From Lachnospiraceae bacterium (lineage in GTDB: Bacteria > Bacillota > Clostridia > Lachnospirales > Lachnospiraceae): a stretch of DNA of 49,389 nucleotides. Shown here one piece after another: positions 31,342-33,305 of the stretch (its first letter is position 1; every line of letters starts with the position of its first letter). The notes under the pieces are model-generated. The model was not told the DNA's origin, did no database searches, and saw nothing but the letters and a program-made list of their open reading frames with translations. The position numbers and the translations under genes were made by a program. Location of the stretch: NCBI GenBank assembly GCA_017462755.1, contig JAFTQM010000069.1, forward strand, positions 1-49,389, in the 5' to 3' direction.

Positions 31342-31370
31342 ATTTTATACTGTTTTACCTTCTATGTCAA
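31342..31370 (-). promoter_or_regulatory. Consensus promoter of rny
   Basis: On the minus strand, TTGACA (31370-31365) and TAAAAT (31347-31342) are 17 bases apart. A second TTGACA occurs 12 bases further upstream. The leader to the GTG start is about 70 bases. Confidence 0.75.
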
Positions 31371-31425: not shown

Positions 31426-33213
31426 TTAGAGTGCTTCCTTCTCGTCTTTTCGTAAATCTGTTTTCTGCAATGCAAAGCCCAGAGCCTCCTCAAAGATAGG
31501 ATACGCGACATCAAATTGATAAAACACATAATAACACGGCTTTTCCCAGTCCCATTCTCCGTTCTTTTGATACACTATACCAAGCATAGCAGCTTCTATG
31601 CCGCTACAATACGATTTTACCTCTGCGATATACCTCTTTGCCGGATCATAAGCCGCACCAAGCACCTCGTTCAAATCCATTTCATAGCAGTAACTTCCTT
31701 CTTCAACAAACTCCGAGGCATTTCGTTCCGGTCCATCATTTCGAACCGCCAAAAGATACTCTCCTTTCGGTGCCTCTGCATAATATATTTCTTTTGCATT
31801 TTCATCGAAAAGCTTGACAGAAAACACCCCGACCTCGGAATGCTCCTGCATATTCCAGACCTCAAGCTTGATTTTTCCATCATCACAGTTTTCGATCGGA
31901 AAATACATAATCCGATTCTTATCCGCCGGAATCGGAGCCTTATTGCGTACCAAAAGCATATAGCTGTCTTCTTCAAAGTTTATCTGAATATCACTGTATA
32001 CCTCTCCTGCCCAGCCTTCATGCCTGTATTTCTTCCCATTTTTCCAAAGGCTACAGGCAAAATCAAATTGATTTGCTTTTAGGAATATTTCATAGCCTTT
32101 CGATGACAATAATTTTCGTGCCAATAACGCCTCACACCACTTGCTCAAATCTGCCATTGTCGTTATCAGCCCCTTAGCACCGTCTTCCGCCCAGCTAAAG
32201 TCCACCCGATAATCCTCAGCGTACCCGATAACATCTGTTTTTCCTGCACTAAGTGATGTCTTCTCCATACCAAGCGGCTCCCAGATATACTCCTTTAATA
32301 GCTGCTCCAGCGGCTTTCCAGAAACACGCTCTATAATCAGCTCTATAATCTCATAATTCAAATCTATCAGTTCGTATTGTTCTCCAGGAACAAAACCGAG
32401 CGGCACCGAATTTATCATCGCTAAAAGCTCTGTATCGCTTCTTTTTTTCAGATATTTCATGTTAAAACGATGATGATAATACGCCGCTTTGGCACCACTG
32501 GCATCTAACGCTTTGTTTTCCTCAAAATATTTCTGATGTGCTTCTTTGTAATGCTCCATTCTGATATCCCGGATTCCGGAGGTCATTCGAAGCAGATGTT
32601 CGATTTTCACCTGATTTCCATAAACATATTCCGGCAAATATTTACCGATATAAGCCTCGACCTCCAATAAACCCTTCTCTGCCAGCTGCAATGTACAAAA
32701 TGCTGTAAACAGCTTTGTCAAGCCGCCGGCAGCAAAAGTACCATCCGCCGAAAAATTAAGCTTCTTTTCCTCGTCTGCTTTTCCCCACGCTGCAAAATAC
32801 TCTTTTCCGTTTGACTGCCTGCTATATACGGCTCCATTATAATTATAATCCGTGACTACCTTATCAAGCCACGGATGAATCTTCGGACGTTCTGATAATC
32901 GCTCATCAATCGCAGCTATCCTTTCTTCAATTTGCTTTCTCTGCTCTGATAACTGTCTACGCTGCCTTAACAAAGAGGCATTCTGCTCTGCGTTTTTCAT
33001 TGTCAAAAGCTCCGGTATTTCCTTTAACGAAAAATTCAGCTCCTTATAATACAATATCTGCTTTAACTGTTCCAACGATTGCTCATTGTAAAAACGATAA
33101 TTATTCCGCTCGTCAATTTCCACCGGCTTTAATAATCCAATATCATCATAATAATGCAGTGTCCGTACACTGACCCCGGTCAACTTTGCTAACTCACTAA
33201 TCTGCATTTTCAT
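31426..33213 (-). CDS. MerR-family regulator fused to a catalytically degenerate beta-lactamase/PBP-like domain
   Basis: A 595-residue fusion. Residues 1-70 are a MerR helix-turn-helix ('ISELAKLTGVSVRTLHYYDDIGLL'), followed by a dimerisation coiled coil (about 75-108). Residues about 120-430 have the class C beta-lactamase/serine-hydrolase fold: 'FAAGGLTKLFTAF' at 160-172, 'LLRMTSGI' at 207-214 and 'HEG' at 398-400. The catalytic Ser of SxxK is Gly164 (Lys167 kept) and the YxN triad is Leu282-Ile-Asp284. The domain is therefore probably a sensor, not a hydrolase. A C-terminal extension (about 435-595) is unrecognised. GGGGGA precedes the ATG. The gene is alone, with its own MerR-type promoter, and is likely autoregulated. 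Confidence 0.87.
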   Translation of the reverse strand: MKMQISELAKLTGVSVRTLHYYDDIGLLKPVEIDERNNYRFYNEQSLEQLKQILYYKELNFSLKEIPELLTMKNAEQNASLLRQRRQLSEQRKQIEERIAAIDERLSERPKIHPWLDKVVTDYNYNGAVYSRQSNGKEYFAAWGKADEEKKLNFSADGTFAAGGLTKLFTAFCTLQLAEKGLLEVEAYIGKYLPEYVYGNQVKIEHLLRMTSGIRDIRMEHYKEAHQKYFEENKALDASGAKAAYYHHRFNMKYLKKRSDTELLAMINSVPLGFVPGEQYELIDLNYEIIELIIERVSGKPLEQLLKEYIWEPLGMEKTSLSAGKTDVIGYAEDYRVDFSWAEDGAKGLITTMADLSKWCEALLARKLLSSKGYEIFLKANQFDFACSLWKNGKKYRHEGWAGEVYSDIQINFEEDSYMLLVRNKAPIPADKNRIMYFPIENCDDGKIKLEVWNMQEHSEVGVFSVKLFDENAKEIYYAEAPKGEYLLAVRNDGPERNASEFVEEGSYCYEMDLNEVLGAAYDPAKRYIAEVKSYCSGIEAAMLGIVYQKNGEWDWEKPCYYVFYQFDVAYPIFEEALGFALQKTDLRKDEKEAL

Positions 33214-33274: not shown

Positions 33275-33305
33275 AGTATACACTATTACGCAACGTTAGA
33301 GTCAA
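33275..33305 (-). promoter_or_regulatory. MerR-type promoter with 19-bp spacer and operator dyad
   Basis: On the minus strand, TTGACT (33305-33300) and TATACT (33280-33275) are separated by 19 bases, the overlong spacing typical of MerR-activated promoters. The dyad ACTCTA-N11-TAGTGT (33302-33280) fills the spacer. It drives the MerR fusion gene itself. Confidence 0.75.

Follow-up and report, generated by a model that had tools for sequence, protein, structure and literature searches.

The window, i.e., the whole stretch of 49,389 nucleotides of Lachnospiraceae bacterium DNA that was analysed (contig JAFTQM010000069.1), carries on its reverse strand a single intact open reading frame of 595 codons with an ATG start at positions 31426-33213. 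It lies between two genes that we take, from reading their translations, to be miaB and rny. The genome to which the window belongs is 2.73 Mb in 99 contigs and is 81.7% complete. The gene, the parts of its product and the promoter sites around it are as follows, with the basis of each assignment in parentheses.

31426..33213, reverse strand: gene of a 595-aa protein comprised of a MerR head, a dead S12 domain and a tail (open reading frame, Pfam domains and the relative L005)
32902..33213, reverse strand: MerR head and dimerisation helix, about residues 1-104 (Pfam; head comparison)
31924..32871, reverse strand: PF00144/S12 domain without the catalytic Ser and Tyr, about residues 115-430 (Pfam; alignment with eight intact relatives)
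31429..31923, reverse strand: tail without an assigned family, about residues 431-595 (38% identity to the tail of L005)
33275..33305, reverse strand: the gene's own promoter and putative operator, with TTGACT, a 19-bp spacer containing an imperfect dyad, and TATACT (sequence pattern)
31342..31370, reverse strand: promoter-like site of the downstream rny, 11 of 12 consensus positions (genomes that lack the MerR gene have the stretch in front of rny as well)

Domain architecture, occurrence and genomic setting

The earlier note on this DNA had read the protein as a MerR head followed by a beta-lactamase-like fold and a tail, and the open reading frame and the Pfam domains bear this out. MerR_1 (PF13411) was matched at residues 3-71 (E 2.1e-17) and MerR-DNA-bind at residues 47-104, and the MerR profiles matched include PF00376 and PF09278; the protein therefore has the N-terminal MerR winged helix-turn-helix by which the MerR family is recognized. 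The Beta-lactamase profile (PF00144) was matched at residues 117-375 with an E value of 4.6e-36 and a score of 125.1 bits, against a curated cut-off of 27. This match stops at position 247 of the 329 in the profile and is followed by the tail, and the limits of 115-430 given above for the S12 domain were drawn by hand. The tail of the window protein has no Pfam match at E 0.1. When it was searched as a pair with the tail of L005, no solved chain was matched up to E 10, and the sole stray Pfam match, to Fam20C (E 0.076), came from just one tail of the pair.

The relative L005, encoded in genome G288 by an intact frame of 566 codons, is composed of the same three parts, and 237 of the 588 aligned positions (40%) are identical between the two proteins (66% in the head, 30% in the helix, 42% in the S12 part and 38% in the tail). 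Over the whole alignment pN is 0.384 and pS is 0.815, and pN is lower than pS in the head, the S12 part and the tail; silent sites are saturated, and a dN/dS ratio is therefore not given. Because pN is well below pS and the frames are intact, both fused proteins appear to have been kept as proteins, and a pseudogene was rejected on the same grounds. L005 is located among radA, tRNA-Trp and tgt (protein gene names again assigned by us from the translations), and the window copy is located between miaB and rny.

L005 is the sole full-length relative that was found. It was detected in one of 299 genomes of the family besides the window's own, and the same single genome was recovered from an overlapping sample of 397 genomes; no further full-length relative was identified among 392 genomes of the order, 398 of the phylum or 391 of the class, one of the last encoding two S12 proteins without a MerR head. 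All of these genome samples, including those of the two genera below, overlap, and the large searches scored only the best three or four candidates per genome, such that divergent fusions could escape them. Five other genomes of the window's genus gave no match in a 61-genome search, and three other genomes of the genus of G288 gave no full-length match (including a 41-genome search), several of these same-genus genomes being 67-86% complete. G639, which also belongs to the genus of G288, carries an intact stand-alone S12 protein (L115); the first search of that genus, at E 1e-45, did not return it, and the 41-genome search gave it at 9.2e-45. A contig scan with a two-row alignment, in which two MerR peptides served as queries, yielded at least 80 loci, and no S12 fusion was found in them with the S12 part and tail of the window protein as query (E 1e-3, frames of at least 150 aa); a contig scan for which the window protein was the sole query confirmed no such fusion. 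Among titles and abstract openings, which cover subscription journals poorly, no published description of a MerR-S12 fusion or of a dead S12 sensor was found.

Three genomes of the window's genus (L112, L113 and L114) have rny directly behind miaB and no MerR gene between the two; the miaB of L114 was read in two pieces, the L111 locus is too short to judge and G300 has no rny match. The patchy occurrence of the fusion, with one full-length relative among the sampled genomes, and its absence from this position in three genomes of the genus might be taken to indicate a decaying gene without a present role. Such decay is highly improbable, as the frames of 595 and 566 codons are intact, pN is below pS throughout and the operator has been retained in both copies. 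In the window, a hairpin after miaB and the promoter-like site before rny are both still present around the inserted gene. The hairpin, with its A-run and T-run, lies before the operator at 33356-33318 on the reverse strand and is a likely terminator, found as a self-match and absent from a separate scan. An imperfect 19-base direct repeat flanks the MerR gene (33380-33362 and 31403-31385, reverse strand; 17 of 19 bases alike, E 0.002) and was matched in L113 and L114, where the site is empty, and in part in L111, but not in L112; this repeat may mark how the MerR gene came in.

Several other accounts of the locus were considered and rejected. Cotranscription with rny is unlikely to be the purpose of the gene, given the promoter-like site before rny and the three genomes in which miaB and rny adjoin without it. 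For plasmid cargo, no plasmid match was obtained at 1e-20, and none at 0.01 for residues 400-595. For phage cargo, 21 phage records were matched, none of them over 80% of the protein; among the 20 matches listed, 19 cover the S12 part and one covers the MerR head, and no relative was found on viral contigs in five protein scans and one pattern scan. As to a defence system, PADLOC matched the head alone, to mad1 and weakly to PbeC (residues 47-108, E 0.0059).

The MerR head, its operator and the TipA/Mta class

The promoter that had been noted earlier at 33275-33305 reads as a MerR-type site, in which the putative operator occupies a 19-bp spacer between the -35 and -10 elements; spacers of 19-20 bp are described as typical of MerR promoters (PMC9909328). 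A site of the same arrangement, also with a 19-bp spacer, precedes L005 amid other genes, and 27 of the 31 bases are alike by hand count (operators: window TTGACTCTAACGTTGCGTAATAGTGTATACT; L005 TTGACTATGACGTCACGTAATAGTGTATACT). A pattern of 17 fixed operator positions was matched exactly once in the window's genome (G000) and once in G288, in each case at the gene's own promoter. At two to three mismatches, four further sites were found in G000 and six in G288 (one of the six being the same site on the opposite strand), compared with eight and six for a reversed control. A wider regulon was rejected because such sites are about as frequent as in the control in both genomes, even though one may exist, since the genome is incomplete and sites with two to three mismatches are present.

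The same pattern was sought upstream of the MerR genes recovered in the contig scan. Among the matches listed from the at least 80 loci, 15 or more of the 17 operator positions were present in 77 of 79 upstream regions (79 of 81 frames, two having too little upstream DNA; up to 300 bases plus 40), the regions short of this being those of L071 (13) and the 517-aa L078 protein (10); the best of 395 base-shuffled controls reached 13 of 17. The TipAS domain (PF07739) was found in 76 of the 77 MerR-head proteins scanned among these listed matches, the 77 being what remained of 81 frames after three cut by contig ends and the L078 protein were excluded. Judged by its sequence, the operator of the window gene is the site of TipA/Mta-type MerR-TipAS genes. 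The L078 protein (L078:3715-5268) is encoded directly behind a gene of MerR-TipAS type and has a long C-terminal part without an above-cut-off Pfam match.

The head points in the same direction. Among the matches listed, 78 MerR heads have TipAS-type length, and its identity to these is 46-57%, a figure that describes likeness and is not a survey, as these heads were fetched by their resemblance to the query; its identity to the six other MerR heads found in its own genome is 26-38%. Its best solved matches include MtaN and TipAN, and in a tree of 36 rows, for which 24 of the 78 heads were picked at random, the heads of the two S12 fusions form a pair at 100/96. Given the shared head type and the operator match, the head and promoter look as if they were inherited as one unit, the C-terminal part being what differs. 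Thus, the window protein resembles members of the TipA/Mta class (TipAL, Mta, SkgA and AlbA) in possessing a MerR head and a class operator with a 19-bp spacer before its own gene, with no other exact operator site in its genome (81.7% complete). It differs from them in that their C-terminal TipAS effector domain, which was not found by Pfam in either the window protein or L005, is replaced by a dead S12 domain and a tail.

Besides the window protein, six MerR proteins were found in its genome, and three of these also have an unusual partner domain, which is a methyltransferase in two and RDD in one. These fusions (L118, L121 and L119) are similar to the window protein in that a MerR head is joined to an enzyme or membrane-type domain, but the C-terminal domains are other ones and the heads are just 28-38% identical to the window head. 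A site with two operator mismatches precedes the MerR-methyltransferase fusion L118 (= L099).

Catalytic sites of the S12 domain

That Ser, Lys and Tyr serve in catalysis by S12 enzymes is well established. The domain was aligned with that of L005 and with eight intact PF00144-type proteins. Two of the eight (L001 and L002) are encoded in the window's own genome and five (L006, L008, L092, L093 and L115) in other genomes, and L109 comes from a record labelled as phage. That record (MT837707.1, marked UNVERIFIED) carries, by its translations, a helicase-like gene as well as the S12 protein and may be bacterial DNA. The alignment defines three motif sites in the window protein.

32713..32724, reverse strand: SxxK site, G164-L-T-K167; I-L-S-S in L005 (alignment)
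32362..32370, reverse strand: YxN site, L282-I-D284; P-C-G in L005 (alignment)
32014..32022, reverse strand: KTG-like site, H398-E-G400; F-H-G in L005 (alignment)

The catalytic Ser, Lys and Tyr are all present in each of the eight intact proteins. Position 164 is Ser in all eight, Gly in the window protein and Ile in L005; likewise, position 282 is Tyr in all eight, Leu in the window protein and Pro in L005. Each of the two fused proteins retains 14 of the 18 columns that are invariant across the intact set. The window protein has lost Ser164 (Gly), Tyr282 (Leu), Ser351 (Thr) and Gly388 (Ser), and L005 has lost Ser164 (Ile), Lys167 (Ser), Ala171 (Val) and Tyr282 (Pro), so that the invariant columns missing from both are just those of the nucleophile, Ser164, and of Tyr282. 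The earlier note's reading of Gly164 in place of the nucleophile and of Leu-Ile-Asp for the YxN motif therefore holds against the eight intact proteins. Its statement that Lys167 and the HEG motif remain is correct for the window protein and fails for L005, in which the corresponding residues are Ser and Phe and Gly400 alone of HEG is common to the two. Had orthologues retained Ser at position 164, the loss could have been a local mutation; this is ruled out, because the single relative lacks both Ser and Tyr and carries different residues in their place.

It might be argued that the protein is still an active enzyme with a substitute nucleophile such as Thr166 (Ser in L005), because a hydroxyl residue occupies the +2 place of the SxxK site in both fused proteins. 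However, the eight intact relatives also have Thr or Ser at this place beside the catalytic Ser, which makes it an ordinary feature of the family, and Lys is absent from L005 and Tyr from both fused proteins; retained activity of this kind is scarcely to be expected. The window protein is thus similar to the PF00144/S12 serine hydrolases (class C beta-lactamase, D-Ala-D-Ala carboxypeptidase, EstB-type esterases and the stand-alone proteins L006 and L115) in having a PF00144 domain above the curated cut-off with 14 of 18 invariant columns. It differs from them in lacking the catalytic Ser-x-x-Lys and Tyr signature (GLTK and LID here, ILSS and PCG in L005, from which Lys is also missing), in the added tail and in its fusion to MerR. 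These comparisons support the view that two genomes share a fusion of a MerR regulator to a serine beta-lactamase-like fold that lacks its catalytic residues.

Proposed mode of action and possible ligands

The earlier note had proposed that the dead domain senses penicillins or muropeptides. A non-hydrolytic receptor whose old active-site cleft binds beta-lactams, muropeptides or D-amino-acid peptides would be in keeping with the membership of the PF00144 family, which includes class C beta-lactamases, D-Ala-D-Ala carboxypeptidases and D-peptidases, and with the retention of Lys167 and HEG in the window protein; against this, the family also includes esterases, and the Lys and His are absent from L005. 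If the cleft were a receptor shared by both fused proteins, the segments around the motifs would be expected to be conserved between them. In segments that we chose around the three motifs, 10 of 38 positions are identical between the window protein and L005, compared with 104 of 254 in the rest of the domain; the resulting ratio of 0.64 is not significant (p = 0.11), though it is the lowest beside 28 pairs of intact S12 proteins, in which the ratio exceeds 1 in 25 and is at least 0.95. This low likeness weakens the case for a beta-lactam or muropeptide ligand, as far as can be judged from residue identities. Without Ser, covalent penicillin recognition is not expected. BlaR1 and MecR1 are membrane sensors of beta-lactams with a class D-like domain in which the acylated Ser has been kept; the window protein would resemble them in using a fold of the penicillin-recognising type as a sensor, and differs in being a one-piece DNA binder without that Ser. 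With Lys and His not conserved in L005, the motif segments less alike than the rest, and esterases as well as D-peptidases among the solved PF00144 structures, the sensor proposed earlier is not supported, and we regard it as improbable.

Alternatively, the sensor may be the tail (about residues 431-595) or the interface between the S12 domain and the tail, the S12 domain serving as a mere scaffold. The identity of the tails (38%) is near that of the S12 parts (42%), and the tail matched no solved chain up to E 10 and no Pfam family except for the stray Fam20C match. The S12 part, by contrast, retains 14 of the 18 invariant columns as if its fold still matters. A sensor in the tail or at the interface seems rather unlikely.

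The window protein probably belongs to the TipA/Mta type of one-component regulators and controls its own gene, a catalytically dead S12 domain and an unclassified tail having taken the place of the drug-binding TipAS domain. The evidence for this reading consists of two intact frames, a head of the TipAS-regulator type, a matching operator with a 19-bp spacer and the loss of Ser and Tyr in both proteins; that only two members of the fusion were found counts against it. Of the interpretation put forward earlier, the fusion of MerR to a dead S12 domain has been extended to a second genome and the sensing of penicillins or muropeptides is not supported; TipA/Mta autoregulation, which was not proposed at the time, is better supported.

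In the scheme that we favour, a dimer of the protein would act at the gene's own promoter, and a cytoplasmic ligand would bind the S12/tail part non-covalently and alter the shape of the protein. The head would then distort the DNA so that the over-long promoter becomes usable by RNA polymerase. The main output would be more regulator protein, and this protein, as has been described for TipA, would in addition sequester the ligand. TipA proteins have been presented as minimal autoregulated multidrug-resistance systems whose own promoter is switched by ligand (PMC7762955), and comparable switching is reported for MerR promoters in general (PMC9909328). Because unliganded TipAS is reported to hinder DNA binding (PMC7762955), the window protein may or may not occupy its promoter before the ligand is bound. 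As the old cleft is not specially conserved, it is not necessarily where a ligand would bind, and the tail or another face of the protein could be the sensor.

More tentatively, the locus may represent a new class of autoinducible sensor-sponge, in which regulators of the TipA type have recruited a serine beta-lactamase-like enzyme, switched its catalysis off and now use its fold to bind a small molecule of the cytoplasm non-covalently, perhaps an antibiotic or a cell-wall fragment, alongside an unclassified tail; this is possible rather than likely. A class of regulators seems to have given up its drug-binding domain in favour of a retired enzyme, with its head and promoter retained. If ligand binding holds true, a pseudoenzyme receptor would join the known effector domains of MerR proteins, and the protein would provide a scaffold for a one-gene biosensor.
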